In this document: one piece after another, positions 2,178 through 19,470 of the stretch
Position numbering within the stretch: position 1 is the stretch's first letter
Layout: every line of letters starts with the position of its first letter
Assembly (NCBI GenBank): GCA_027307165.1
Contig: DAHUXM010000034.1
Location: forward strand, 372,001-436,000
DNA from: Gemmatimonadota bacterium
Lineage (GTDB): Bacteria; Gemmatimonadota; Gemmatimonadetes; Gemmatimonadales; Gemmatimonadaceae
Length of the DNA: 64,000 nucleotides
Reading direction: 5' to 3'
Position numbers and translations under genes: made by a program
Notes under the pieces: model-generated
What the model was told of the DNA's origin: nothing
Databases searched by the model: none
The model's input: only the letters and a program-made list of their open reading frames with translations

Positions 2178-2265
2178 CCAAGTTGATAAGTTTAGCCAGG
2201 AAGATTGAGACCCAACCGGCCAGTTCACAACCCGGCCCGGGAAACACCGTAACGAATGGGTGGAA

Positions 2266-3267
2266 ATGCTGAATAACAAGGTGATTTTGATCACGGGCGG
2301 GACTGGCTCGTTCGGCCAGAGATTCGTCCAAACAGTGCTCGATCGATACAAGCCCACCCGGTTGATCGTGTTCAGCCGCGATGAGCTGAAACAGTTCCAG
2401 ATGCGCGAGCGTTTCTCGGAAGCGAAATACCCCTGTCTCCGGTATTTCATCGGGGATGTGAGAGATCGAGATCGCCTTTATCGAGCGTTCGATGGAGTCG
2501 ACGTAGTGGTACATGCGGCAGCACTCAAGCAGGTGCCGGCGTGTGAGTACAATCCAATCGAAGCGATTCGCACGAACGTCATGGGTGCCGCCAACGTCGT
2601 TGACGCCGCGATTGATCGGGGTGTGAGCAAAGTTGTGGCGCTCAGTACGGACAAGGCCGCAGGACCGGTAAACCTCTATGGGGCAACGAAGCTTTGTTCG
2701 GACAAGCTGTTTACGGCGGCAAATAGCTACGCGGGCGCGCATGCAACCCGGTTCTCTGTGGTTAGATACGGAAACGTTGTTGGAAGCCGCGGGAGCGTGA
2801 TTCCGTTCTTTCTCCGCGCTCGCGACACGGGCAAGCTTCAGATCACGGATCCAAGAATGACACGGTTCTGGATCACGCTGGAGCAAGGTGTTGAGTTCGT
2901 GCTCGCCAGTCTGAAGCGGATGCACGGCGGCGAGGTATTCGTTCCAAAGATTCCGAGCATGAACATCATGGACGTCGCCCGTGCTATCGCACCCGAATGC
3001 GAGACTAGTGTCATTGGTATCCGGCCCGGCGAGAAACTGCATGAATTGATGGTAGGCGAAGATGACAGCCGGAATACGGTCGAGTATGACGACTATTTCG
3101 CTATTCTCCCATCCTTCCATCAATGGACTGCAGACGATTGCGCTGCCAACGGCGGACGACTCTGTTCCGAAGGCTTTCGTTACAGCAGCGACCGAAATGA
3201 TCGTTGGCTCTCCGCGGAGGAGTTGAGGGCCATGGTGGGCTTGGCCGAACCGGCCGGGGTCGCGTAG
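2266..3267 (+). CDS. pseB: UDP-GlcNAc 4,6-dehydratase (inverting), pseudaminic acid pathway step 1
   Basis: PseB removes water from UDP-GlcNAc and inverts C5, giving UDP-2-acetamido-2,6-dideoxy-L-arabino-hexos-4-ulose. I start at ATG 2266 (MLNNKVILITGGTGSFG), which matches the typical PseB N-terminus; a GTG two codons upstream (2260) is possible. The nucleotide motif GGTGSFG is at residues 11-17. The unusual catalytic set of the family is visible as D129, K130, Y138 and K142 (STDK...YGATK). It is the first gene of a contiguous pse block, and pseC begins 2 bases after it. Confidence 0.95.
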   Translation: MLNNKVILITGGTGSFGQRFVQTVLDRYKPTRLIVFSRDELKQFQMRERFSEAKYPCLRYFIGDVRDRDRLYRAFDGVDVVVHAAALKQVPACEYNPIEAIRTNVMGAANVVDAAIDRGVSKVVALSTDKAAGPVNLYGATKLCSDKLFTAANSYAGAHATRFSVVRYGNVVGSRGSVIPFFLRARDTGKLQITDPRMTRFWITLEQGVEFVLASLKRMHGGEVFVPKIPSMNIMDVARAIAPECETSVIGIRPGEKLHELMVGEDDSRNTVEYDDYFAILPSFHQWTADDCAANGGRLCSEGFRYSSDRNDRWLSAEELRAMVGLAEPAGVA

Positions 3268-3268
3268 C

Positions 3269-4447
3269 GTGGCGACGCAGCCGCCTGGCAACGTACCAAT
3301 CCCCTACGGACACCAGTGCATTGGGGATGACGATATCGAAGCGGTGGTGAAAGTGCTGCGCGGCGACTGGCTGACGCAGGGGCCTTCAGTCACCGACTTC
3401 GAGGGAGCGCTCTCGCGCACACTTGGTGCTTCCCATGCGCTTGCAATGAACTCAGGAACGGCCGTGCTGCACGCTGGAATGGCAGCGCTTGGTATCACTG
3501 AAGGTGACGTTGTCGTGGTTCCTCCGATCACCTTTGTGGCGAGCGCGAATGCTGCACTCTACTGCGGTGCGGATGTGGCATTCGTCGATGTCGAGGCTGA
3601 CACCGGGCTCATTTCCGTAAAGGCCCTTGGGGAGTTTTTACGGTCCGATCCGCGTCGTGCGAAGGTTCGCGCAGTAGTCGCCGTGCACTATGCTGGAATG
3701 CCGTGCGATATCGGCGAGCTTGCGGCGCTTTGCGCGCAAAACGGGATCGCGTTGATCGAGGATGCGTGTCACGCTCCGGGCGCAACGTGGACCGACTCAA
3801 GCGGAACTCTTCACACGATCGGGGACGGCTCGCTCTCCGCGTTCACGGCCCTCAGCTTTCATCCCGTGAAGCACGTGACAACCGCTGAAGGTGGTGCACT
3901 TCTCACCAATGACGCAGCGCTTGCGGAGCGAGCGGCCATGTTCCGCTCGCACGGCGTTACTCGGCGCGACGACCTGCTCCAAGCGCACGACGGGCCTTGG
4001 TACTACGAGCAGCATACGCTTGGCTTCAACTATCGGATGCCGGACGTGTTAGCTGCTCTCGGCACGAGCCAGCTTGCAAAGCATCGTGGGTGGCTGGAGC
4101 GTCGTCGTGAGGTTGCCCGTGTTTATCGAGAGCAGCTTGCCGGCATCTCGACATTGGAATTGCAGGCCGAGCGCCCCGGGCGCAACCATGCGTACCATCT
4201 CTTTCCAGTGCTGGTTCAGAATCGTGCAGCGGTCTTCGATGAGCTGGTACGGCGCGGCATCCGACCCCAGGTGCACTATATCCCCGTCCATCGGCAGCCG
4301 TACTACAGATCTCGATATGGTGACATATCGATGCCGTCCGCGGAATCATGGTACGCCCGGGAACTGAGCATCCCGATGTTCCAGGGGATTACGGACGATC
4401 AGGTCGCGTACGTGTGCGATACCGTCAGGGCGGTGGTGTGTGGATGA
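3269..4447 (+). CDS. pseC: UDP-4-amino-4,6-dideoxy-L-AltNAc transaminase, pseudaminic acid pathway step 2
   Basis: PLP-dependent DegT/DnrJ/EryC1 aminotransferase that aminates C4 of the PseB product, using glutamate as donor in characterised homologues. The protein is 392 residues, near the usual length. It begins at GTG 3269, and its N-terminus (IPYGHQCIGDDDI) is typical. K201 in SFHPVKHVTTAEGG is the PLP lysine, and EDACHAPGA precedes it as the cofactor-contact segment. It lies between pseB and pseG, which supports the specific PseC assignment over other sugar transaminases. Confidence 0.94.
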   Translation: MATQPPGNVPIPYGHQCIGDDDIEAVVKVLRGDWLTQGPSVTDFEGALSRTLGASHALAMNSGTAVLHAGMAALGITEGDVVVVPPITFVASANAALYCGADVAFVDVEADTGLISVKALGEFLRSDPRRAKVRAVVAVHYAGMPCDIGELAALCAQNGIALIEDACHAPGATWTDSSGTLHTIGDGSLSAFTALSFHPVKHVTTAEGGALLTNDAALAERAAMFRSHGVTRRDDLLQAHDGPWYYEQHTLGFNYRMPDVLAALGTSQLAKHRGWLERRREVARVYREQLAGISTLELQAERPGRNHAYHLFPVLVQNRAAVFDELVRRGIRPQVHYIPVHRQPYYRSRYGDISMPSAESWYARELSIPMFQGITDDQVAYVCDTVRAVVCG

Positions 4448-4490
4448 GTCGCGGCGCGAGTCTGTTTTCGGCTGACGCCGCCGGTAAATC

Positions 4491-5531
4491 ATGCGAGTGC
4501 TGATGCGCGCGGATTCGTCGGCGGATATCGGCGCGGGCCATATCAGTCGTTGCGGTGCACTCGCAGAAGCGCTGTTTGCGCGCGGAGTTCGCGCCACGCT
4601 CCTGACACGGGACCTCCCCGGCTCCGTGGCGGAGTCAACCGACGCGATGGAGGTGCTTTCATTGCCGCCGAAGCTGGGCGGCGATCGGCTATGTGATCGC
4701 CGTGCCGCGGAGATCGCGCGCAGGTGGCTCGAAGTAGACTCGGAATCGTCCTGGCTCGTTGTTGACCATTACGACCTGGACGCAACGTGGGAACGTGCCG
4801 CTCGCGGCGACCGAACAAGAGTATTCGCGATTGACGACCTTGCGGACCGTCCGCACGCATGCGATTTGCTGCTTGATCAGAATCTCTCCGACGACGGCGC
4901 CCGGCGGTATGCCTCACGCGTGCGAGCCGACTGTCGTCTGCTCTTCGGTCCGCGATTCGCGCTGTTGCGTCCGGCGTTCGCCGAGGCTCACGCAACCGCG
5001 CGCGTACGCCAGCGGGTGAGACGAGTACTGTTTTTTTTCGGTGGTGGCGATGCCTTTGACCTGACAACCGAGGCGATCAAAGCGATCGGACTGCTTGGAC
5101 CGACGGATGCCCAGTTTGACGTTGTCGTCGGCGGTGGCAACTCGAGAGCCGGCGCCATCCGCACCCTTGTCTCTGGAATGCCTTCGGTAACATTTCACTT
5201 TCGGACAGACAGAATGGCTGAGCTGATGGCTGCCGCGGATATCAGCGTAGGCGCTGGAGGGACGGCGACCTGGGAGCGCTGCTGCGTAGGCTTGCCAGCC
5301 CTTGTGATCGTGACAGCGGAAAATCAGCGGCGGGTTGTAAAGGAAGCGTCCGAACATGGCGCATGTCGGGATCTTGGATACGCCAGAGATGTAACATCCT
5401 CCACGATTGCGGCGGCGCTTGGCGATGCATTGTCCGGGCGTTTTGACCTCAGCGGAATGTCGCGCGCAGCGTTGAGCATTGTCGATGGCAAGGGCGCGGC
5501 ACGTGTCGCCGAAATCATGCTCTCCGCATGA
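4491..5531 (+). CDS. pseG: UDP-2,4-diacetamido-2,4,6-trideoxy-L-altropyranose hydrolase
   Basis: PseG is a GT-B-fold hydrolase that removes UDP from the doubly acetylated sugar, freeing 6-deoxy-AltdiNAc for PseI. The 346 residues begin with MRVLMRADSS and the GAGH motif, whose H17 corresponds to the catalytic histidine of Campylobacter PseG. A nucleotide-binding stretch GAGGTATWERC lies towards the C-terminus. The gene follows pseC by 43 bases, and its last codon overlaps the pseH-like ATG by 4 bases (ATGA), so the two are probably translationally coupled. Confidence 0.94.
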   Translation: MRVLMRADSSADIGAGHISRCGALAEALFARGVRATLLTRDLPGSVAESTDAMEVLSLPPKLGGDRLCDRRAAEIARRWLEVDSESSWLVVDHYDLDATWERAARGDRTRVFAIDDLADRPHACDLLLDQNLSDDGARRYASRVRADCRLLFGPRFALLRPAFAEAHATARVRQRVRRVLFFFGGGDAFDLTTEAIKAIGLLGPTDAQFDVVVGGGNSRAGAIRTLVSGMPSVTFHFRTDRMAELMAAADISVGAGGTATWERCCVGLPALVIVTAENQRRVVKEASEHGACRDLGYARDVTSSTIAAALGDALSGRFDLSGMSRAALSIVDGKGAARVAEIMLSA

Positions 5532-6058
5532 CGGTAACACCAAGCGTCATCACGCCGTCGTTGAGGCTGGCGACAGCAGGAGACCTCCTCTTGTATTTTG
5601 AATGGGCGAACGACCCTGACGTGCGCAAGATGTCGTTCGATGGTAATTCAATCCCGATTGATGCGCACCGCATCTGGTTCGCGAGGAAATTGAAATCTCC
5701 AGACGTTCTCATGCTTGTTCTCGAGGCTCCCACTCCCGTCGGCCAGATTCGCTTCGACGTTGCGAACGACGTTGCTCTGATCGGGTTCTCGCTTGCACGG
5801 AGCGCGCGCGGGCGAGGGCTTGGTTCGTATCTTCTGCGTCAGGGATGTCTGCATCTTCACGCGCGATTCCCCGATGTGCGAACTGCTCGCGGTCTGGTAA
5901 AGGCGGCTAATATCGCATCGCGTCGTGCATTCGAAGCTGCAGGATTCTACGTCGCGGCGGAAACGCGAGAATCGAGTATCCCGGCGCTCACGTACGATAT
6001 CGATGTCGCCCGTCTTACCGCCTCTACCGCCTGTACCGCCTCTCCTGCGGCCAGCTGA
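5528..6058 (+). CDS. pseH: GNAT N-acetyltransferase, probable PseH
   Basis: Predicted to transfer acetyl from acetyl-CoA to the 4-amino group of the PseC product, the step between PseC and PseG. The 176-residue protein has a GNAT fold signature: the acetyl-CoA pyrophosphate-binding segment RSARGRGLGSYLL sits in the middle, and a closing RRAFEAAGF motif follows. The role comes mainly from position between pseG and pseI; sequence alone supports only GNAT. The C-terminal tail (LTASTACTASPAAS) is encoded by three tandem 9-base units (6016-6042) and looks dispensable. Confidence 0.85.
   Translation: MTVTPSVITPSLRLATAGDLLLYFEWANDPDVRKMSFDGNSIPIDAHRIWFARKLKSPDVLMLVLEAPTPVGQIRFDVANDVALIGFSLARSARGRGLGSYLLRQGCLHLHARFPDVRTARGLVKAANIASRRAFEAAGFYVAAETRESSIPALTYDIDVARLTASTACTASPAAS
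6016..6042 (+). repeat. Three 9-bp tandem repeats at the 3' end of pseH
   Basis: TACCGCCTC, TACCGCCTG and TACCGCCTC follow each other without gaps just before the pseH stop. The unit length is a multiple of three, so gain or loss of units changes only the length of the Thr/Ala/Ser-rich tail. Confidence 0.8.
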
Positions 6059-6067
6059 AATTCGATT

Positions 6068-7132
6068 ATGTCACTGCCATTCATAACAATTGGGGAGCGG
6101 CGCATAGGCGCTGACTTTCCTGCGTACATTGTTGCCGAGCTGTCCGGCAACCACAACGGCGACCTTGGGCGGGCGGTTGAAACTGTCCATGCCGCTGCCG
6201 ATGCAGGCGCTGATGCGTTGAAGCTCCAGACGTACACCGCGGACACAATTACAATCAAGTGCGACCGACCGGATTTCATCGTGGGGGGTACTGGACCATG
6301 GGCTGGCATGTCCCTCCACCAGCTATATGACGTCGCTCATACCCCTTGGGATTGGCATGAGCGACTCTTCGATGTCGCAGTGTCGCGTGGCTTGCAGATA
6401 TTTTCCACGCCGTTCGACGCAACGGCTGTCGACTTTCTCTCCCAGCTTGGCGCTCCGGCATTCAAGATCGCATCGTTCGAGATAGTTGACGACGCGCTGC
6501 TTGCGGCCGTGGCCGCAACCGGAAAGCCGATCATTTTATCTACGGGGATGGCGAGCCTTGAAGAGGTGGCACACGCGATCAGCGTGCTACGAACCGCGGG
6601 TGCCGTAGAGACGCTCGTGCTTCGTTGCACCAGCAGCTATCCTGCGCCGGACGACTCGATGCATCTCTCCACGCTTGCTCGCCTGGCGGAGATCACTGAA
6701 GGTCCGGTTGGCCTGTCCGACCATAGTCTCGGTTCGACGGCCGCAGTTGTCGCCGTGACATTGGGGGCATGTTTCATAGAAAAACACTTCACGCTCTCGC
6801 GCGCTGACGGCGGCGTGGACAGTCATTTTTCGCTCGAGCCAAGCGAATTCAGGAAGATGGTTGATGACGTCCGGAAAGCAGAGGCGATGATCGGGCGACC
6901 AACATTCGGGCCCGGCGTCGCGGAGGAGGGAAGCGCGGTATTCCGCAGGTCGCTGTACGTGGTAGAAGACATAGCAGCGGGCATGCCATTGACTCCGCTA
7001 AATGTGCGGTCAATTCGTCCTGGCTTCGGGATGTCGCCACGGTACCTCGATGCTGTACTGGGACGGCGTGTCGTGCGCGACGTCGTGCGTGGCACACCTC
7101 TGTCCTGGGACACCATTTCGGACGCGAGCTGA
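6068..7132 (+). CDS. pseI: Pseudaminic acid synthase
   Basis: NeuB-family enzyme that condenses 6-deoxy-AltdiNAc with phosphoenolpyruvate to make pseudaminic acid. The 354-residue protein has the NeuB TIM barrel over about residues 1-275 (AELSGNHNG, then ALKLQTYTADTIT, and metal-binding histidines in GLSDHSLGS and IEKHFTLSR). A C-terminal SAF/antifreeze-like domain covers about 290-354. QTYTADTIT and the surrounding pse genes favour PseI over NeuB or LegI. The aldo/keto reductase gene begins at the base after the stop. Confidence 0.94.
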   Translation: MSLPFITIGERRIGADFPAYIVAELSGNHNGDLGRAVETVHAAADAGADALKLQTYTADTITIKCDRPDFIVGGTGPWAGMSLHQLYDVAHTPWDWHERLFDVAVSRGLQIFSTPFDATAVDFLSQLGAPAFKIASFEIVDDALLAAVAATGKPIILSTGMASLEEVAHAISVLRTAGAVETLVLRCTSSYPAPDDSMHLSTLARLAEITEGPVGLSDHSLGSTAAVVAVTLGACFIEKHFTLSRADGGVDSHFSLEPSEFRKMVDDVRKAEAMIGRPTFGPGVAEEGSAVFRRSLYVVEDIAAGMPLTPLNVRSIRPGFGMSPRYLDAVLGRRVVRDVVRGTPLSWDTISDAS

Positions 7133-8011
7133 GTGGTGGCTCCTGAGTTAAAGCTTGATCGCATCGTACTCGGTACGGTGCAGATCGGACTTCCCTATGG
7201 CAAGAGGCGAGGTGCGGGCCTGATGTCGGAAGACGCTGCCGAGGAAATCCTCGACGCAGCGTGGGACCTGGGGATCAGGAATTTCGACACTGCGGAAGCC
7301 TACGGCGTATCGGCCGCTCGTTTGTCGCACTGGCTTGGCAAATCTGGTCGCCTGCAGTTTGCTCATGTAATCACGAAAATCGCGGCGACGTTACCCACTG
7401 AGAGGATCATCTCGGCGGCGTCGGATGCGATCGCGAGGTTCGACGGTGCACGGAAGATAACACTTCTGTCGCATGGTCCTATGAGCGCGCGCAACTGGAG
7501 TGCCATGCACGCGACGGCGCTTATGGAGCATGCTCTCGCAGGCCAGAGTGTGTACGAACGCCAGGAAGTGGTGGATGCCTGGTCACTGGATGGCGTCAGT
7601 GTGGTGCAGGCGCCAGCCAACGTTTTTGATTCTCGCGCTATGCTCGCACACTCGGACGACTCGCGGGAGATGCACTACCGTTCCGTTTTTTTACAGGGCT
7701 TGCTGCTCGACGCGCCATCTGTCGCGGACGCTCGCGTCGCGGGTAGCGGCAGACTGGCTGAAGCGGTGGGCCAAGCCGCCGCCGCGATCGGAACGCCTGC
7801 GGCTGTGCTGCTCGCAGCGGCAGTGCTCCGCGCTTCCCGGCCAGTCGACAAGATTATCCTGGGCGCCGACAAGCCAGAAGACTTGATGCCGATCCCAGCA
7901 GCTCTGGAAGCGCCGGAGGGTAGCATCGACGAATTTCTGGACCACATCGCACGTGTGCCGGCACCCGCTGAGACGGTGTTGGACCCTCGTACCTGGGATC
8001 CGAAGCAATGA
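7133..8011 (+). CDS. Aldo/keto reductase associated with nonulosonate synthesis
   Basis: Predicted NAD(P)H-dependent aldo/keto reductase of 292 residues. The family catalytic tetrad is visible as D52, Y57 (NFDTAEAYG), K82 (VITKI) and H114 (LLSHGP). GTG 7133 is chosen because it directly follows the pseI stop; GTG 7136 would also work. The gene shares a 4-base ATGA overlap with the cytidylyltransferase-aminotransferase fusion, so the two enzymes are likely made together and may act one after the other: oxidation or reduction of a carbon, then transamination. The substrate is unknown. It is not part of the classical PseBCHGIF pathway. Confidence 0.8.
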   Translation: MVAPELKLDRIVLGTVQIGLPYGKRRGAGLMSEDAAEEILDAAWDLGIRNFDTAEAYGVSAARLSHWLGKSGRLQFAHVITKIAATLPTERIISAASDAIARFDGARKITLLSHGPMSARNWSAMHATALMEHALAGQSVYERQEVVDAWSLDGVSVVQAPANVFDSRAMLAHSDDSREMHYRSVFLQGLLLDAPSVADARVAGSGRLAEAVGQAAAAIGTPAAVLLAAAVLRASRPVDKIILGADKPEDLMPIPAALEAPEGSIDEFLDHIARVPAPAETVLDPRTWDPKQ

Positions 8012-10068
8012 CGCGCGTCGTTGCCCTTATCCAGGCGCGCACAAGCTCATCCAGGCTGCCAGGCAAGGTGCTGCTGCCGATCGGTGATCGACCCATGATC
8101 GCGCGTGTGGTTGATCAGGTCTCCGCTGCACGAAGGGTGGATCGATGCGTCGTCGTAACGTCGGTGGACGTGTCGGATGATCCGCTCGCCGCGTGGCTGT
8201 CAGAGAACGGGATTGCGTTCTTCCGGGGAAGCCTCGACGACGTGCTCTCACGTTTCGTCGAAGCGGCCAGGGAAAACGACGCGGACGTCGTTGTAAGGCT
8301 GACAGGGGACTGTCCGCTCCACAGCGGCGACACGATCGACGAGGTTGTCGAGGCATTTCAGGCAGGTGACTTCGATTACGCCTGCAACGTCGACCCGTAT
8401 TCCCGTCCAGACGGGCAGGACGTAGAAGTGATGACGAGAGCGGTGCTCGAGACTGCGCTACAGCGCGGGACGTCAGGTCCCGATCGCGAGCACGTCACAC
8501 CGTACGTGCGGCGAGCGCCGGAAGTCAGGCGTTTATATTTCCAGCACCTGTCCGGTCCGCCAGGTGCACACTTGCGCTGGACGGTGGATAATCCCGCCGA
8601 CCTGGAATATGTTCGAACCATCTGGTCAGAGCTCGACCGACTCGGGCCAGGTCCACATACTTATGAGGCAATCATGGGCGTAGTCGCAGAGCTTGCGCCG
8701 ACAGCCGCTACCGCAATCGCTAACGAAGGGTATTACAAGTCTCTTTTTGACGCAGCGACGGGTGACAAGGCCAAACCTCGCCCTCTAGCGAAAAGCGAGG
8801 CCTGGCTCACACGTAGCTCGCGGGTTATACCTGGCGGTGCGCAGACTTACTCCAAGAGCTGGCGTCAGCACATTCGTGGTGTTTCGCCCGTTTTTCTTGA
8901 CCATGGGGCCGGTGCTCACGTATGGGACGTCGACGACAACGAATACATTGACCTCATTCAGGGCTTGCTGCCAAACATCCTCGGGTATGCCCACCCCGAC
9001 GTAGATCGCGCCGCCTATGAGCAGGCGTCCAAGGGGCATAGCTTTTCGCTCGCCCATCCGCTCGAGGTTGAACTCGCGGAGCGCCTTACGCGCATCATCC
9101 CGTGCGCCGAGATGGTGAAGTATGGCAAGAACGGGTCGGATGCCACGGCAGGAGCGGTGCGTGCTGCACGCGCATTTACCAAGCGCGAGCGAGTCGCCGT
9201 TTGCGGCTACCATGGCTGGCAGGACTGGTACATTGGAAGCACGTCCCGCACCGCGGGCGTTCCGGCAGCGGTTCGCGAGCTGACGCACACATTCCCGTAT
9301 AACAACCTTGACGCGCTGGATCAGCTTTTGTCCGCGCACAAAGGCGAGTTCGCCGCAGTCGTGATGGAGCCGTTCAACTTCTTCTGGCCGGCTGATGGTT
9401 ATCTCAAGGGCGTCCTCGATATAACGCATCGCCACGGTGCGTTACTGGTATTCGACGAGATCTGCACCGGCTTCCATCTTGGGCTCGGCGGTGCGCAGCA
9501 GATGTTCGGCGTAACGCCGGATCTCGCCACGTTCGGCAAGGCGATGGGTAACGGCTATCCTATCAGCTGCATTGTCGGCCGTGCTGATGTGATGCGCACG
9601 TTCGATGATGTATTCGTGAGCTTCACATTTGCAGGTGATACGTCAGCGATGGCAGCATCGATGACTGTGCTCGACATCCTTGAGAACACCGATGCGTATC
9701 TGCGTATGGAGGCCGCCGGAAAGCGACTCTCTGATGGCGCGCGATCACTTGCAGCGCAAGCCGGTCTTGGTGACAGGTTTCAGATGCTGGGGCATCACAA
9801 CTGGTCGCTGATGCGCTTCCTGAGCGCTGAAGGGACCGACGATCCGGTACTGAAGACGGCATGGACGCAGGAAGTAACACGCCGCGGAGTGTTGGTGTTG
9901 GCGACGCACAATATTTGCGCTGCGCTCGACAACGCGGCAGTCGAAGCTGTACTGGGTGCGTATGCCGAGGGATTCAAGCGCGTTGGGGCCTTGATCGCCA
10001 AGGGTGCCGATCTCACCGCGGAGCTGGACGGGCCGATTCCGACGCCGGCGTTCCGCGCTCGGGGCTGA
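8008..10068 (+). CDS. Fusion of SpsF-type cytidylyltransferase and class III aminotransferase (GSA-aminomutase-like)
   Basis: Residues 1 to about 240 form a SpsF/CMP-Kdo-synthetase-like nucleotidyltransferase (start VVALIQARTSSSRLPGKVL; later LTGDCPL and DREHVTPYVRR). Residues about 262-686 form a class III PLP aminotransferase resembling glutamate-1-semialdehyde aminomutase (RVIPGGAQTYSK, GKNGSDAT, VFDEICTGF, and PLP lysine K511 in TFGKAMGNGYP). One uninterrupted reading frame links them. No separate pseF is present, so the N-terminal half is the likely CMP-pseudaminate synthetase. The aminotransferase half implies an extra amino group or a modified nonulosonate. This role is inferred from context. 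Confidence 0.85.
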   Translation: MTRVVALIQARTSSSRLPGKVLLPIGDRPMIARVVDQVSAARRVDRCVVVTSVDVSDDPLAAWLSENGIAFFRGSLDDVLSRFVEAARENDADVVVRLTGDCPLHSGDTIDEVVEAFQAGDFDYACNVDPYSRPDGQDVEVMTRAVLETALQRGTSGPDREHVTPYVRRAPEVRRLYFQHLSGPPGAHLRWTVDNPADLEYVRTIWSELDRLGPGPHTYEAIMGVVAELAPTAATAIANEGYYKSLFDAATGDKAKPRPLAKSEAWLTRSSRVIPGGAQTYSKSWRQHIRGVSPVFLDHGAGAHVWDVDDNEYIDLIQGLLPNILGYAHPDVDRAAYEQASKGHSFSLAHPLEVELAERLTRIIPCAEMVKYGKNGSDATAGAVRAARAFTKRERVAVCGYHGWQDWYIGSTSRTAGVPAAVRELTHTFPYNNLDALDQLLSAHKGEFAAVVMEPFNFFWPADGYLKGVLDITHRHGALLVFDEICTGFHLGLGGAQQMFGVTPDLATFGKAMGNGYPISCIVGRADVMRTFDDVFVSFTFAGDTSAMAASMTVLDILENTDAYLRMEAAGKRLSDGARSLAAQAGLGDRFQMLGHHNWSLMRFLSAEGTDDPVLKTAWTQEVTRRGVLVLATHNICAALDNAAVEAVLGAYAEGFKRVGALIAKGADLTAELDGPIPTPAFRARG

Positions 10069-10099: not shown

Positions 10100-10915
10100 A
10101 TGATCGGGCAGTTCATATTTCCGACCTGCGAGGTTGCGGGGTTGCGAGTCGCCGCGTATCTCCGCAACACACCGCGTGCTGCGGGAAGTCAATCCGGCGA
10201 TATCGGGGTCGAGCTGCAGGTGTTCCAGCGCGGCGAGTTGGTCGCGCACGAGCCCGAGTTCGGCACGATACCGTTCGGGGGGGTGTTGGAGGTGTCGGAG
10301 AGAACCTGCGCGGCGCTGGCTCCCGTTGGCGCTGATCGGCTCGTCGTCGCGCGTTGTCGTACAGCGGATGGATCGGATTCCTACTTTGCGCAGGAACACC
10401 ATCTCTCATATGAGAATCATCGTACGGGCGTGTTCGATTCACTGCTGTATGATCAGCTGCCGCTAGTCAAGCCGGGCCGCCGCGCGTCACCAATCATTTT
10501 GCTGGCTCCGAAGGCCTGGATCAGTGCGGATGTAAACTCGTTCGTTGCGTTCGCCAACGTTGGCGCATCCGCGGCAGCTGAACCGCAAGCAGTGCCATTG
10601 GTTGTTTCGGTCCTGTCTGCGGACGGCGAGGTCTTATCCACGGATACGTATGACGAGCCGCAGAATAGTGCGCTGCTCTTCGACGTTCGTGGCGCGCTGC
10701 GAGGGAAGCTCGGGAATTCTGACGCTCCCCAACTCGTCAACGTCGTGGCACGCGGCGGCGCTAGCATGTACGCAATTATGACGTTCGTCGTAAATCAAGT
10801 CACCGGAAATTTCGCGCTCGAGCATTCACTTTCTCCACACTACTACGTGACCGAAGGACTTGCCCGGGTTCGAACAGAAGCGCTTTCCACGCTGCATACT
10901 GCTGGAGCACGATAG
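10100..10915 (+). CDS. Unknown protein A, pseudaminate-cluster associated
   Basis: I do not recognise a family. I start at ATG 10100 (MIGQFIFPTCEV) because the longer frame upstream overlaps the preceding gene and reads as non-protein. The 271 residues carry no signal peptide or membrane helix. They alternate short hydrophobic strands with polar turns, suggesting a beta-sandwich. Two halves show a similar pattern, and the second ends in a block around NQVTGNFALEHS. The next gene begins on the last base of its stop and has a related ending (NFDNGAFSAAHS), so the two look like diverged duplicates. Context suggests a role in handling the glycan made by the preceding enzymes. Confidence 0.7.
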   Translation: MIGQFIFPTCEVAGLRVAAYLRNTPRAAGSQSGDIGVELQVFQRGELVAHEPEFGTIPFGGVLEVSERTCAALAPVGADRLVVARCRTADGSDSYFAQEHHLSYENHRTGVFDSLLYDQLPLVKPGRRASPIILLAPKAWISADVNSFVAFANVGASAAAEPQAVPLVVSVLSADGEVLSTDTYDEPQNSALLFDVRGALRGKLGNSDAPQLVNVVARGGASMYAIMTFVVNQVTGNFALEHSLSPHYYVTEGLARVRTEALSTLHTAGAR

Positions 10916-11715
10916 TGTCGCTTCCATCGTTGTCGACGGCACCCGGCACGTTTGTCCGTCGCGTAATGGGGTCCCGGAAAATTCTCCGCTGGCTGCCGCG
11001 GAACCTGAAGCTAGGCGATCCCGTTCTGCAATTCTTCCTCAACGGTTTCGGAAAGACGACACGGTACACTTTTGTGAATTTCCCGTCTTTGTATGCTCCG
11101 GGGACTGCGCACTCCTGCATTTATGACCTCGTCCTGCACGACGCTCTCGGATCGATCGCCGGACGCGCCACGATCGAGGTCCCCGTGGCGGGAACGGCGG
11201 ATGTGGTATTGAGTGACGTTATGCGTACTCCATTACCAGAGCTAGGAATTCTCTCGGCTCGAATCCGCTCCCCCAGACATTTTGATTACAGCGATCGGCA
11301 TCTGGGAACGGTACGATCCTTCTTTTACGCGGCGTATCATGATCAGGCAATGCGCTCGATTTCCGTAATCCATCCGCAAACAGCGAAATACAGCTCGCTT
11401 CCGGATCGACCCACTTGGCGGTCGAACATGCTCCTGTGGCCGTCACGCGTGAATTCTTTCGAACTGCTGCTGATGAATCCAACGACCGTGGACGCCGTCA
11501 CGGATCTACGGCTCGTTGCTGGGAACGGGGAAATAGTGGCGTCGAGCGCTGCGACGATTCCGCCTTTCGGTTCCCGTCGAGTGGTCTGGGAATCGGCGCC
11601 GCTACGACAGTATCCCTACGTCAGCGTGTCGGCCGATATGCTCGCCGCCCCCAACGCCAAGCCACTTGTCTTTCTCAACTTTGACAACGGTGCATTCAGC
11701 GCAGCCCATAGCTAG
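10915..11715 (+). CDS. Unknown protein B, probable paralogue of protein A
   Basis: The 266-residue product starts at GTG 10915, which shares one base with the preceding stop (TAGTG). No membrane helix or signal peptide is apparent. Like protein A, it reads as a string of beta strands with two similar halves: TRYTFVNFPS followed by IYDLVLHD, and SFELLLMNPT followed by DLRLVAGNGEIV. Its terminal NFDNGAFSAAHS echoes NQVTGNFALEHS of A. No catalytic motif is recognisable. It is followed 34 bases later by the MBOAT acyltransferase gene. Function unknown. Confidence 0.68.
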   Translation: MSLPSLSTAPGTFVRRVMGSRKILRWLPRNLKLGDPVLQFFLNGFGKTTRYTFVNFPSLYAPGTAHSCIYDLVLHDALGSIAGRATIEVPVAGTADVVLSDVMRTPLPELGILSARIRSPRHFDYSDRHLGTVRSFFYAAYHDQAMRSISVIHPQTAKYSSLPDRPTWRSNMLLWPSRVNSFELLLMNPTTVDAVTDLRLVAGNGEIVASSAATIPPFGSRRVVWESAPLRQYPYVSVSADMLAAPNAKPLVFLNFDNGAFSAAHS

Positions 11716-11749: not shown

Positions 11750-13150
11750 GTGCTGTTCAACTCATTCGAGTTCCTGCTTCTTTTCCTTCCGGTGGTGCTG
11801 GGCGTTGCCCTGCTACTCCGCGGGAATGTGTTGCTATTCTGGATTGCGCTGGCGAGCTGCGTGTTTTACGCGTTCGCCGGGCATTCATGGTTCCTAATAC
11901 CGATGGGAATCTCGACGACCCTCGATTTCTGGGTCGGCGGTCGTATCGGCGCGTCGTCCAATCCGCGCGTTCGCCGAGCCTATCTGATTCTGTCCCTTAC
12001 GGCGAATCTGGGGCTGCTCGCATACTTCAAGTATTCCGGGCTGATTGCGCGAACCATCGAATCGGCGCTCAATGTCGTTTCACCGCACGCTGGTAACGCT
12101 GCATGGGTGGACCTGTTCAGGGTCGTGCTTCCCGCAGGAATATCGTTCTACACGTTTCAGACGATATCGTACGTCATTGACATCTACCGAGGTGAGAGCC
12201 CGCCCGAAAGAAATTTCCTCAAATACCTGTCCTTCGTCGCCTTCTTCCCCCATCTCGTCGCGGGTCCGCTGACGCGTCACCACCAGTTGATTCCTCAATT
12301 GAGTCGTATCGCCGAGCGTGGAATTTCACCGCGTTGGCGAGCGGCGTTGATACTCTTTGCAGTGGGTCTGGCGAAAAAGGTGCTGATTGCTGATCGAGTC
12401 GGCAATGCAATCGATCCTGTAATCGCTACGATTGGAACGCAAGGGTTCGTCGCGTCATGGCTGGTCCTGCTGGGTTATTCGGTACAGATATACTTCGATT
12501 TTAGTGGCTACTCTGATATGGCGATTGGTCTGGGGCGGCTCTTCGCGATCGAACTCCCTCAAAACTTCAATAGCCCGTACCAGGCGACTAGCCCCAGCGA
12601 TTTCTGGGCGCGATGGCACATAACGTTGAGTCGGTGGCTGCGCGACTACCTCTACATCCCGTTAGGCGGTAATCGTAAAGGAGACATGAGAACGAAGGTA
12701 AATCTCATGATCACGATGGTGCTCGGCGGGCTATGGCACGGCGCCAACTGGACTTTTGCGATGTGGGGACTATTCCACGGCCTGTTGCTCTGGGGGTATC
12801 ACGCAACCTCCGAGACATGGGACGTGTGGCCGGAATGGTGGCGTCGCGTCGCCACTTATCTCTTAATGACACTTGCGTGGGTGTTTTTCAGAGCGCCGAC
12901 GCTGTCACTCGCTGGTCGATGGTTTGGAGGCCTCGCGGGATTGCGCGGGTTGGGTGCATTGGAGGCCGTATCGCCCCACATGGTGCTTCTGATCCTGGCC
13001 GCGGTTGTCGGCTCGATGACGATGCGGAACGTGTACCAGCGCGACATGTCGACACTCTCGCTGACGCAGGCAGGTTTCGTTGGCGCTGTTGCCGGCGTCG
13101 CGCTCGTGATGATGAACTATTCGTCGAAGTTCCTGTACTTCCAGTTCTGA
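11750..13150 (+). CDS. MBOAT-family membrane O-acyltransferase (AlgI/DltB-like)
   Basis: Polytopic inner-membrane protein of 466 residues that probably moves an acyl group, usually acetyl, across the membrane to modify an exported glycan. It starts at GTG 11750 (MLFNSFEFLLLFLPVVL), a common start in AlgI-type proteins. The conserved sequence SFYTFQTISYVIDIYRG, the segment FDFSGYSDMAIGLGRLF and the catalytic histidine H330 in GLWHGANWTF are all visible. Its stop overlaps the ATG of the SGNH-like partner by one base, the usual arrangement for MBOAT plus a periplasmic acyl carrier or transferase. It may O-acetylate the pseudaminic-acid-containing polymer. Confidence 0.93.
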   Translation: MLFNSFEFLLLFLPVVLGVALLLRGNVLLFWIALASCVFYAFAGHSWFLIPMGISTTLDFWVGGRIGASSNPRVRRAYLILSLTANLGLLAYFKYSGLIARTIESALNVVSPHAGNAAWVDLFRVVLPAGISFYTFQTISYVIDIYRGESPPERNFLKYLSFVAFFPHLVAGPLTRHHQLIPQLSRIAERGISPRWRAALILFAVGLAKKVLIADRVGNAIDPVIATIGTQGFVASWLVLLGYSVQIYFDFSGYSDMAIGLGRLFAIELPQNFNSPYQATSPSDFWARWHITLSRWLRDYLYIPLGGNRKGDMRTKVNLMITMVLGGLWHGANWTFAMWGLFHGLLLWGYHATSETWDVWPEWWRRVATYLLMTLAWVFFRAPTLSLAGRWFGGLAGLRGLGALEAVSPHMVLLILAAVVGSMTMRNVYQRDMSTLSLTQAGFVGAVAGVALVMMNYSSKFLYFQF

Positions 13151-14319
13151 TGGACGGATCGTCGGCAAGTGTTCCCGGATTGTCGAGGCGTTCATTCGCG
13201 TCGTTCGTAGCGGTCGTCTGCACCGTTTGCGTGATAACGTACACGATCAATGCGCATTACGATGTATCGGCTCTGGACCAGGGTGCATTGATAACGCGAC
13301 TGGCGAAGGCTCAGTCGGACTCCGATTTGCTGGTGTGGCAAGACGCCTTCGACCAACGCGCCTGGCTCAAGGAACGGTTACTCGATCCACGCGCAGACGA
13401 GCAGTTGCTGATCCTGAGCAGTAGCACATTGGGTGGCCTCAGCCAGGCGATGTTTCCACGACGCGCTGTACTGAATGGCTGGCTGTCCGCTCCGACGATA
13501 GAGGATTTCGAAGCCAGTACAGTGTTGCTGGACCATTCACCCCATAAGCCGCCAATCGTCGTGCTCGGAATCGATGCCTGGTTTCTTAATCCCGTGATTG
13601 ACGATCAACGATGGCGTAGTCTGACGGCGGAATACATTGCGTACCACCGTGCTGAGGGCGAAGGTGTCCAGGTCTACGCACAAAAACCTCTACGATGGTG
13701 GGCGACATTCAAGGAGCGGTTGACATTCGCGACACTGCGCGAGACGCTTCTGTTCGTTCGCCGAGCTCATCGTGCCTCGGAGCCGATCCGTCCTTGGCTT
13801 GTTAGAGCGACACCTGAGGCGTATTGTAGCCGGATTTCCGCCGAAGAGTACATCAGGACAGCCGTTGGTGACTACGTGAGCTGTCCGGCGCTTCGGAATC
13901 CTCAGGCGGTTGTCGATAGCGAGGCGACGACGTATCTATCCCTCAATACTCATTCGATGGCGGAGTGGCGCGTCGTCGATCGCTCGCGTGCAGCCCGCCT
14001 GGAGGCTGCTATCGAACACATCCGGAACGATGGAGAGTCGGTGGTTGTAGTGGCTCCTCCATATCACCCCATTACATACGCCGCGCTTCGCGCCAATCCC
14101 AACACTGCGCGCAACCTTGATGAAGTGGATAGAATCCTGGGTGACGTGGCTCACCGTACAGGTGCGGAGTATCTAAATCTCCGAGACCCATCCGATCTCG
14201 GCTGCGTCGCCGAGGATTTTTTGGATAGCCACCACACCAAGGCCAGCTGCGGGCGCAAGATCGCAGAGCGTATCGCCGCTGCGGCAGATGCGTCAGCGGG
14301 GAGCCGCCAACCCCGGTGA
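13150..14319 (+). CDS. Membrane-anchored SGNH/DltD-like partner of the MBOAT transferase
   Basis: I start at ATG 13150, which shares a base with the MBOAT stop; the longer frame upstream lies inside that gene. The 389-residue protein has one N-terminal membrane helix at about 17-33 and the rest outside the cytoplasm. The probable catalytic serine lies in LILSSSTLGG (about 88-96). A GIDAWFLN block at about 140-147 and a C-terminal D-x-x-H-like segment (EDFLDSHHTK) fit an SGNH hydrolase fold as in DltD/AlgJ-type proteins. It likely receives the acyl group from the MBOAT protein and transfers it to the glycan. Confidence 0.78.
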   Translation: MDGSSASVPGLSRRSFASFVAVVCTVCVITYTINAHYDVSALDQGALITRLAKAQSDSDLLVWQDAFDQRAWLKERLLDPRADEQLLILSSSTLGGLSQAMFPRRAVLNGWLSAPTIEDFEASTVLLDHSPHKPPIVVLGIDAWFLNPVIDDQRWRSLTAEYIAYHRAEGEGVQVYAQKPLRWWATFKERLTFATLRETLLFVRRAHRASEPIRPWLVRATPEAYCSRISAEEYIRTAVGDYVSCPALRNPQAVVDSEATTYLSLNTHSMAEWRVVDRSRAARLEAAIEHIRNDGESVVVVAPPYHPITYAALRANPNTARNLDEVDRILGDVAHRTGAEYLNLRDPSDLGCVAEDFLDSHHTKASCGRKIAERIAAAADASAGSRQPR

Positions 14320-14653: not shown

Positions 14654-16180
14654 GTGAAGGTATTGATCCTGGATCACCACTTCAAGCAGGATATCGACGC
14701 GCTTGTGCGGGTCGCTTCCGATAACGATATCGTAAGACTCGTTTCTGCAGAATTTTTTGCGTCGCGCGCACGGGAGATATTCCCCCGGGACGTATTCGAT
14801 GCTGATCTCTCACGATATCATGCACCGGAATTCGCCAACCACCGCGCAACGTATCGAAAGTTGGCCGCGCAGTTGACATCCGAGCTCTACCTGACGTTTC
14901 CTTTCGACGTACTAGTCCTGCCGTCGGATACGTTCTTCTATATCAGAGACGTCATCGACACGGTTCGCGAAATGGGGATAGCAATCGTTGTCGTTCAAAA
15001 GGAGTCGGGTGTGTCGGCCAAATCGCTGGAGCACCACGCGACGGAGATGCGGCGCTGGTTTCCATTCAGTGGCGATATAATGACCGTCTGCAGCGAAAAA
15101 TCGAAAGATTTCTGGGTTGCATGCGGTGCGCGACCGGACCAGGTGTTAGTCCTAGGGCAGCCTCGTTTCGATGTGTACAGTGCGCGGACAGACGCTGCCG
15201 ATCGCTCAGTGTTGGGTGTGGGTGCAAGCGCTGGCAGGCCTACCGTGTTGTTCCTATCCTACGATCTTGATGCGTACGCCGAGGAGCGCAGTCTGGGAGC
15301 GGCACACAGACCGTGGGAGCGACTGCATCAGGAGACGGAAAGCGTTCTGCTCGACCTCGCAGGGAAGGGGGTGTTCACGCTGATGATCAAGCCACATCCG
15401 CAGCAGAATGCGAGTCAACTGGCGCACCTTGTGAACCGCGTGAATCACGTGCCGAATACGTTTATTTTGCCGGCGGGCGTGGATACGAGATCACTTCTAC
15501 TGTCGGTCGATACCGTGGTCGGTTTCCAGACGACCGCGATCGCGGAAGCGATGATAGCAGGCAAGAGAGTCCTCTACACGTTCTGGACGGATAATGTCAA
15601 GCGAGTCCAGACATTGCTATTGCCATTCCATGAAATGGGCGATGCGATCGAGATTGCGACCTCTCCTCGCGACTTGGACGAACGATTACAATCTCCGGTG
15701 GCAGCACTGACTGAAGCCGTGAAACTGAAGCGGCAACAATACTGCGAGCCATATCTTGGAATTGTGGACGGCGCTGCGGCAGCTCGGGTCTGGAGCGTTG
15801 TGCGCGCGAACGCCGATCGACACATTAGCGCGAGTGCAACCGGAGGGCTGGACGACCGATCCGTTGCGTATTGCCGGGCGGAAGCAACACGGGCCGCTCG
15901 TAGTCGCATCGTGTGGGCTATTCTGGCCAAGGGCGCACCCTTTTTCCCGGGTGGGGGCAAATTCTCCGCTCGCGCGGAAGGGCGCCGACGGCGGGAGATT
16001 GAACGCGTCACGGAGTGCCGTGAGCGAATTTCGGGGGAATATCGAGGGACAGGATCATTGCGTGGGCCGCGTTCTGACGGTGTGTTCGGGGCTGCGCGAC
16101 GCTTCGTGGCGGGAATAATCCAGCCACGCTCCGATCTCGACAGCGTGACGGTGAGAACGCGCCGCGCGCGACCATGCTGA
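14654..16180 (+). CDS. Capsule/teichoic-type surface glycan transferase (GT-B-like)
   Basis: I start at GTG 14654 (MKVLILDHHFKQDIDALV); 28 codons upstream remain open but look non-coding. The 508-residue protein resembles the capsule polysaccharide / CDP-glycerol glycerophosphotransferase superfamily. The N-terminal half is Rossmann-like. In the C-terminal half KPHPQQN and later TVVGFQTTAIAEAMIAGKRV match the nucleotide-sugar or CDP-polyol binding segments of such GT-B enzymes. Residues after about 420 are Arg-rich and probably accessory. The stop lies inside the ABC transporter gene (7-base overlap). The precise donor and acceptor cannot be told. Confidence 0.7.
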   Translation: MKVLILDHHFKQDIDALVRVASDNDIVRLVSAEFFASRAREIFPRDVFDADLSRYHAPEFANHRATYRKLAAQLTSELYLTFPFDVLVLPSDTFFYIRDVIDTVREMGIAIVVVQKESGVSAKSLEHHATEMRRWFPFSGDIMTVCSEKSKDFWVACGARPDQVLVLGQPRFDVYSARTDAADRSVLGVGASAGRPTVLFLSYDLDAYAEERSLGAAHRPWERLHQETESVLLDLAGKGVFTLMIKPHPQQNASQLAHLVNRVNHVPNTFILPAGVDTRSLLLSVDTVVGFQTTAIAEAMIAGKRVLYTFWTDNVKRVQTLLLPFHEMGDAIEIATSPRDLDERLQSPVAALTEAVKLKRQQYCEPYLGIVDGAAAARVWSVVRANADRHISASATGGLDDRSVAYCRAEATRAARSRIVWAILAKGAPFFPGGGKFSARAEGRRRREIERVTECRERISGEYRGTGSLRGPRSDGVFGAARRFVAGIIQPRSDLDSVTVRTRRARPC

Positions 16181-17946: not shown

Positions 17947-19470
17947 ATGGCTCGGAAGCGTTTGTTGGTTTATTCGCCGTTGGCGATCTGGCAGCCGCCG
18001 ATCTATGAAACGCAGTTGGAGATCGTGCAGGACTATGTCGATGAAGGGTACGATGCGACTATACTAACGTGTCACGCGCATTTGCCTACGTGTGAAGCAA
18101 ACCCACGTCACTTGTGGTCAGTGTGCACACTATGCCGCTCGCGCGCCAAGTCCGGATTCGAGTGGCTTCGCGGCCAATTTAGTGTTGCAGATTTCTTCGA
18201 TGTGACACCGGGCCAGCAAAAGCGCATCGACACTATCGTGCGGACTCCTTTTCGGACGCTAGAGGAACTCCGGTCCCTCTCGGTAGACGGTTCGGATATT
18301 GGAATGGCCGTTCTAAGTAGCGTTGTCAGTGCGCTTAGGGATCCCAACCCGGACCTTGACGCGAATCGTGCGGGAATCGTAGAGGGAATTCGAGCGGCTG
18401 CCGTGGTCCATTTCTCAATCTTGAATCATATTGCCCGTCTCCGCCCGGACGTACTGCTTTTGTTTAACGGCCGCGTTGCGAGCCTGAGGCCAGCCATGCG
18501 GGCCGGACAGGCGTCTGGAGTAAGGACAGTTGTGTATGAGGTAGGGGGGTCGCCCGATCGTTACTTCACAACAACCAATACCTATCCCCACGACTTGGCG
18601 ACGCTGAAGCACGTCTTCAACGCCGCGTTCGACGAAGCAACGGAATCTCCGGAGGAGAAGGCGCAGATTGCAGATTCATGGTATAAGGCACGGATTGCCA
18701 GTCGGCCGGCCGATGGAATGTCGTTCACCGAAAAGCAGGAAGCTGGTCGCATTCCAGAGCGGCTTCAAAGCGATGGCCTGCGCGTCGGCATATTCATCTC
18801 GTCCGAGGACGAATTTGTTGCGATCGACGGATGGAAACCCCCGCTCTACGTCAATCAGGCCGACGGAATTCGTCAACTCCTCGCGGCCTTCGCCGATTGT
18901 ACCGGTGTGCAATTTGTGTTGCGTGTACATCCAAACTTGACAGGGCTAGACAATGCGCAGACGCGGGAGCTGGCCGTGATTGCGCAGGATTATCCGGATC
19001 TGTATGTAATCGAGGCTTCCTCACCGGTTCACACGTATTCGTTGATTGAGGCCGTGGATATTGTTGTAACCTTTGGCTCGACGGTCGCAATTGAAGCCGT
19101 CTACCTTGGGAAGCCATCAATAATGCTTGGGCGACATATCTTTGAAGACATGGGCGGTGTGATTCGCCCACCAACCCATGACGAATTGGTCGCAATAATC
19201 CGCGACGCTATTAGCGGCAAACCTGTGGATGTGCAAGCGGATGCTAAGCAGGCGGCTATCCGATTCGGCTTTGCGCAATCCCGAGTTGGCGTGCCATACA
19301 GGTACGTCGTCCGCGACGGCGCTGATCGGGCAGTATTGATCAGGGACGGCCATAGCCATCGATTGCGGTACAGCCTCACTGCCAGGCTTGTCACCGCGCC
19401 GGCTCGCGCCATTCGGAGGCTGACGAACTCGGTCGCGCCGAAGCACTTCACGCGGTCATCGAACATATGA
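17947..19470 (+). CDS. Putative capsule-type glycan transferase with an N-terminal cysteine cluster
   Basis: The 507-residue protein starts at the base after the ABC transporter stop. No membrane helix is evident. The C-terminal half has a capsule-synthesis/GT-B look: FVLRVHPNLTG, then VVTFGSTVAIEAVYLGKPSIML, a donor-binding-like block also seen in the transferase upstream of the ABC gene. The N-terminal region contains four cysteines, C42, C49, C60 and C63, spaced as C-x6-C-x10-C-x2-C, which could bind a metal or iron-sulfur centre. The exact reaction is unknown. It overlaps the acetyltransferase gene by 4 bases. Confidence 0.62.
   Translation: MARKRLLVYSPLAIWQPPIYETQLEIVQDYVDEGYDATILTCHAHLPTCEANPRHLWSVCTLCRSRAKSGFEWLRGQFSVADFFDVTPGQQKRIDTIVRTPFRTLEELRSLSVDGSDIGMAVLSSVVSALRDPNPDLDANRAGIVEGIRAAAVVHFSILNHIARLRPDVLLLFNGRVASLRPAMRAGQASGVRTVVYEVGGSPDRYFTTTNTYPHDLATLKHVFNAAFDEATESPEEKAQIADSWYKARIASRPADGMSFTEKQEAGRIPERLQSDGLRVGIFISSEDEFVAIDGWKPPLYVNQADGIRQLLAAFADCTGVQFVLRVHPNLTGLDNAQTRELAVIAQDYPDLYVIEASSPVHTYSLIEAVDIVVTFGSTVAIEAVYLGKPSIMLGRHIFEDMGGVIRPPTHDELVAIIRDAISGKPVDVQADAKQAAIRFGFAQSRVGVPYRYVVRDGADRAVLIRDGHSHRLRYSLTARLVTAPARAIRRLTNSVAPKHFTRSSNI

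Follow-up and report, generated by a model that had tools for sequence, protein, structure and literature searches.

The window, that is, the whole stretch of 64,000 nucleotides that was analysed, carries a pseudaminic acid (Pse) biosynthesis block near its start, with the following features.

2260 to 3267, + strand: PseB, inverting UDP-GlcNAc 4,6-dehydratase (TIGR03589, 533.9 bits, cut-off 407.75)
3269 to 4447, + strand: PseC aminotransferase (TIGR03588, 469.6 bits, cut-off 423.5)
4491 to 5531, + strand: PseG UDP-sugar hydrolase (TIGR03590, 243.7 bits, cut-off 153.55)
5528 to 6058, + strand: GNAT acetyltransferase in the PseH position, with an ATGA overlap with pseG (PF13302, 48.4 bits)
6068 to 7132, + strand: PseI pseudaminic acid synthase (TIGR03586, 447.7 bits, cut-off 340.25)
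7133 to 8011, + strand: aldo/keto reductase (AKR), the proposed ketone-making partner (PF00248, 32.1 bits, cut-off 24)
8008 to 8712, + strand: SpsF-type cytidylyltransferase domain of a fusion protein, residues 1-235 (PF02348)
8782 to 10068, + strand: class III aminotransferase domain of the same protein, residues 259-686, with the PLP lysine K511 (PF00202)

PseB, PseC, PseG and PseI all score above their NCBIfam equivalog cut-offs. The GNAT protein is divergent and weakly PseH-like, reaching 16.7 bits against the TIGR03585 cut-off of 93.1, and it is the only GNAT of the cluster. The AKR and the fusion close the pse block, 3' of pseI. The AKR, assigned by PF00248, possesses the D-Y-K-H tetrad, and its stop codon overlaps the start codon of the fusion gene in an ATGA, the coupling described in the original prediction.

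Two adjoining ORFs directly after the fusion gene, at 10100-10915 and 10915-11715, have no Pfam or NCBIfam match. They are followed by an MBOAT acyltransferase (11750-13150) and a GDSL-like protein (13174-14319), a pair probably involved in O-acetylation of a surface polysaccharide. Further on, the products of 14657-16180 and 17947-19470 resemble the NCBIfam BFO_1060 family glycosyltransferase, at 52 and 38 bits against a cut-off of 200. BFO_1060 of Tannerella forsythia has been linked to Pse transfer, which makes both proteins candidate nonulosonate transferases.

The ORF at 8008-10068 (+) is a single uninterrupted frame of 686 amino acids, in which residues 5-179 match Pfam PF02348 (CTP_transf_3) with 89.7 bits (cut-off 22.6) and residues 294-635 match PF00202 (Aminotran_3) with 174.6 bits. 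An SpsF-like nucleotidyltransferase is thus joined to a PLP enzyme in one reading frame, as had been proposed, with K511 conserved. The AlphaFold2 model of the fusion, built with 31 fused homologues as input, is confident, with a pLDDT of 90.8 and a pTM of 0.90. In the SpsF domain, whose nearest solved relative is 6oew (E 3e-31), residues Q9, A10, R11, R16, K20, D101, D194 and D198 are invariant across 31 aligned fusions. In the aminotransferase domain, K511, D483 and K283 are invariant, and the full set of 66 homologues compared, whether fused or adjacent, shares K511.

The best fold matches of the aminotransferase domain include GSAM, PctV, FumI and GenB3/GenB4. Its top NCBIfam model is PRK06209 (NF004856; residues 260-683, 357 bits, below the cut-off of 486), which carries the name glutamate-1-semialdehyde 2,1-aminomutase by annotation and not as a demonstrated function for the fusion. 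The HemL equivalog cut-off (TIGR00713, 527.3) is not reached by the fusion, at 231.3 bits, whereas the genome's own HemL scores 563.3 bits. In glutamate-1-semialdehyde aminomutase, the arginine of the PGGVSSPVR segment binds the substrate. Alignment to 2cfb places K283 at this arginine in the fusion, while the genome's own HemL retains PVR. All 31 aligned fusions share the S-K pair at K283, the lysine being present in 66 of 66 fused or adjacent homologues, and the domain branches apart from the genome's own HemL in a quick tree. The family searches suggested with the original prediction place the two halves in PF02348 and PF00202, the first failing the PseF model (20.9 bits) and the second failing HemL.

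Classical PseF (TIGR03584, cut-off 205.7) was found neither in the window nor in the source genome, which is 98.2% complete. Its CTP_transf_3 (PF02348) proteins number two, the fusion and a KdsB (TIGR00466, 216.8 bits, cut-off 155.2), the latter scoring 43 bits with the PseF model. A pse block with B, C, G, an H-like gene and I lacking classical PseF, as originally described, is therefore confirmed, and the assembly holds no genuine pseF elsewhere that could speak against the proposed role of the fusion. One PseI and one PseC score above cut-off in the genome. Because PseC is retained, the second aminotransferase does not simply duplicate it, and with PseC and HemL separately encoded, the fused aminotransferase represents an extra function.

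The recurrence of the fusion was examined in a scan using one genome per species, from which the best 80 of 571 relatives were taken by similarity, many of them inter-related. Among these 80, the SpsF and aminotransferase pair occurs in about ten phyla, as a fusion or as adjacent genes. The fused form is present in Acidobacteriota, Verrucomicrobiota, Chloroflexota, Nitrospirota, Pseudomonadota, Bacteroidota and others, and split adjacent genes occur in Aeromonas, Colwellia, Janthinobacterium, Bacillus, Paenibacillus, Anoxybacillus and Lachnospiraceae. A 98%-identical copy of the fusion was found in one congener and a 39%-identical fusion in another (G003). With copies in two congeners and the pair in about ten phyla, the fusion is more than a chance joining.

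The second congener's locus (L181 in G003) has the order pseB-C-AKR-fusion-G-H-I, with its fusion drawn from another clade. The placement of the window and G003 fusions in two distant clades points to transfer of whole clusters. The fusion itself appears, from the sequences compared, to have arisen several times; a single origin is not supported, as parsimony on a quick tree counts 9 changes of state, of which well-supported branches make at least 4 unavoidable. In another member of the window's family (L183 in G017), an SpsF-type gene, a Gfo/Idh gene, a class III aminotransferase gene and NeuB follow one another in that order, giving the same three functions in a different arrangement.

Genes surrounding the pair were assessed in 44 loci, drawn from the best 80 of 571 relatives, in which the pair lies inside a pse cluster with enough flank, and an oxidoreductase was counted when located at most 3.7 kb upstream or 1.5 kb downstream. 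Such a gene accompanies the pair in 38 of the 44 clusters: 29 have an AKR and 9 a Gfo/Idh/MocA protein, two unrelated folds occupying the same place. In the other 6, no oxidoreductase was recognised over this range; one of them (L025) nevertheless carries an AKR elsewhere in its operon. An empty gap between pseC and spsF, first recorded where the AKR had been missed, proved mostly wrong, since a divergent AKR or Gfo/Idh gene lies there. In one Acidobacteria locus (L015:6960-10046), a single ORF of 1028 amino acids encodes Gfo/Idh/MocA, SpsF and aminotransferase domains in succession. A second GNAT is present in 11 of the 44 clusters, which fits what a further amine would need. The single GNAT of the window cluster implies that an 8-amine would stay free or receive its acyl group from another enzyme.

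The control consisted of 19 clusters with a true PseF, all from one class (Gammaproteobacteria) and mostly ordered pseB-C-F-G-H-I. No AKR or class III aminotransferase occurs in any of these 19 clusters, and one has a Gfo/Idh gene further off, giving a contrast of 38/44 against 1/19 for the oxidoreductase (Fisher p 9e-10, with many loci inter-related). The pair lies between pseC and pseG in most clusters, the window being an exception. As the control clusters carry pseF at this point without AKR or aminotransferase, the cassette takes the pseF position in most clusters. The two can also coexist: in the genome of L088, one cluster (L180) contains classical pseF, an AKR and an SpsF::aminotransferase, as though unmodified and modified Pse each had their own activation step. 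The SpsF domain is therefore not the sole activator in every cluster.

Use of SpsF-type enzymes in place of PseF or NeuA has been noted before. SpsF of Bacillus subtilis is the same type of cytidylyltransferase acting for a nonulosonate, but it is unfused and serves the legionaminic acid pathway (PMC7439481). The Pse cluster of Vibrio sp. B9-25K2 encodes, after pseC, an SpsF::AKR protein together with a dehydrogenase, and its SpsF-type domain was proposed as a stand-in for missing NeuA; the cluster shares the SpsF-type domain and AKR partner with the window but lacks a class III aminotransferase, and the authors' Pse-type sugar had a different fragmentation pattern (PMC7371886). PseF and the fusion are both CTP_transf_3 proteins, would perform the same step and hold the same operon place in other clusters, but the fusion is far below the PseF cut-off and classical pseF is without an aminotransferase or AKR partner in 19 of 19 clusters. 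The substitution of SpsF for PseF put forward in the original prediction is therefore seen here, but the swap itself has precedents in B. subtilis SpsF, the Vibrio SpsF::AKR and EpaA.

The closest demonstrated system comprises EpaA (SpsF-type::AKR) and EpaB (an SDR) of Acinetobacter baumannii prophages, which invert C8 to convert Pse into 8-epi-Pse (PMC12053666); a C8 ketone would be the obvious intermediate of this route. The window resembles it in an N-terminal CTP_transf_3 domain, an AKR and a predicted modification of Pse beside its activation, the C8 change being demonstrated for EpaAB (PMC12053666). In EpaA, however, one protein joins the SpsF-type domain to the AKR, with an SDR as partner, whereas the window has a free-standing AKR and a class III aminotransferase joined to the SpsF domain. 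The pse block (2260-10068) thus lacks the EpaA-type arrangement of CTP_transf_3 fused to an AKR plus an SDR, and none of its genes encodes an EpaB-like SDR dehydrogenase. A search of a phage collection for EpaA-like proteins returned 0 matches for the AKR and three uninformative matches for the SpsF domain.

A chemical parallel is provided by gentamicin biosynthesis, in which GenQ turns the methylated C6' alcohol of G418 into a ketone that GenB1 then aminates (PMC4039129). In that pathway a class III-fold transaminase completes the conversion of -CHOH-CH3 into -CHNH2-CH3 on a sugar, chemically the step proposed for the window, and GenB3/GenB4 have the fold of the window aminotransferase; the differences are that GenQ is a flavin enzyme, the substrate is an aminoglycoside and nucleotide activation is not involved. 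The expected type of product exists in nature, since the lipopolysaccharide of Flexibacter maritimus contains an 8-amino-3,5,7,8,9-pentadeoxy nonulosonate of manno configuration (PMC3210612). Among the Flavobacteriales samples, the MAR1 16S primer site and 16S similarity yielded no genome assignable to Tenacibaculum (Flexibacter) maritimum, the sole exact MAR1 match lying inside a coding gene.

The domains with their intact catalytic residues, the operon layout, the absence of PseF and the recurrence of the cassette are direct sequence observations, and the best explanation for them is that the AKR and the fusion act as a 'modify and activate' cassette in place of PseF. In the proposed pathway, PseB, PseC, the GNAT, PseG and PseI would produce Pse. 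The AKR, or a Gfo/Idh/MocA dehydrogenase in other lineages, would interconvert the C8 alcohol (-CHOH-CH3) and the 8-ketone of Pse, the class III aminotransferase domain would transaminate the ketone to 8-amino-8-deoxy-Pse, and the SpsF domain would move CMP from CTP onto this product for use in a surface polysaccharide, with amination presumed to precede CMP transfer. CMP activation by the SpsF domain is very likely. Amination of the sugar by the aminotransferase domain is likely, and the assignment of C8 as its site is held somewhat less firmly. That position, which the original prediction did not name, is suggested by EpaAB, GenQ/GenB and the natural 8-amino nonulosonate, which together favour C8 amination plus CMP activation as a reasonably probable role of the cassette; swapping one EpaAB redox partner for an aminotransferase would give the 8-amine. 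AKRs reduce more often than they oxidise, which counts against an AKR-made ketone. For the original suggestion that the protein both activates the sugar and adds an amino group, the comparative evidence (the pseF slot, the oxidoreductase, the continued presence of PseC and a second GNAT in some clusters) is favourable, but fusion itself is not essential to it, because the halves are often separate neighbouring genes.

Since the sequence does not fix the position, the cassette might instead act on the nonulosonate elsewhere or otherwise, aminating another carbon such as C4 or using the PLP enzyme and oxidoreductase to isomerise an existing centre, with SpsF still activating the product. EpaA/EpaB show that SpsF/AKR sets can epimerise (PMC12053666), and GenB2, of the same fold family, is an isomerase (PMC11420954). 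This alternative is nevertheless unlikely, as an 8-amino nonulosonate is on record (PMC3210612) and the two GNATs of 11 of the 44 clusters are more easily reconciled with an added amine than with isomerisation. We know of no C4-amino nonulosonate.

Class III enzymes often use amino acids and keto acids, and unusual acyl groups are possible on nonulosonates, so that the aminotransferase and oxidoreductase could produce a decoration for the sugar, either a small amino compound or an acyl group, or serve a neighbouring pathway, leaving only SpsF in Pse activation. The placement of the aminotransferase, fused or adjacent to SpsF inside the pse block in about ten phyla, with an oxidoreductase that can share the polypeptide, makes this quite improbable. 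A diverged HemL or second PseC lying by chance beside an SpsF gene, although HemL-type proteins are the nearest named family and pseC is absent at the locus in L024, L027 and L092, was rejected as very improbable in view of the low HemL score, the separate branch and the presence in the genome of an authentic HemL (563 bits) as well as a PseC (469 bits), with PseC above cut-off elsewhere in the L024 and L092 genomes.

Within open-licence papers, nothing was found that treats the SpsF-aminotransferase pair as a cassette, mentions its oxidoreductase partners or proposes a product for it, nor any description of the biosynthesis of an 8-amino nonulosonate. For the fusion, or a class III aminotransferase in Pse clusters, the same literature yielded only a gene table for the Legionella pneumophila serogroup 6 and 12 O-antigen locus, where the same three kinds of gene, for PseG, a class III aminotransferase and a cytidylyltransferase, lie side by side, but as separate genes and as a table entry without a proposed role (PMC3694923). 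As far as that literature goes, the cassette would be a new and widespread variant of nonulosonate biosynthesis. In its widest form, the proposal is a cassette for 8-amino-8-deoxy nonulosonates that combines a class III aminotransferase and an SpsF-type CMP-transferase with an AKR or Gfo/Idh oxidoreductase, in some clusters together with a second acetyltransferase, and that has been swapped as a block for pseF in Pse clusters of about ten phyla and repeatedly fused; its chances are about even.

Nonulosonates at the cell surface influence recognition by phages as well as immunity and flagella. Surveys based on PseF would miss clusters with the cassette or predict plain Pse throughout. The cassette might account for the bacterial synthesis of 8-amino forms of a Pse-like sugar and, if the proposal is true, would supply candidate genes for the 8-amino nonulosonate structure and a sequence marker for such sugars in Aeromonas, Bacillaceae, Lachnospiraceae, Acidobacteria and many others, in which an acidic sugar would become a zwitterion when the amine stays free.
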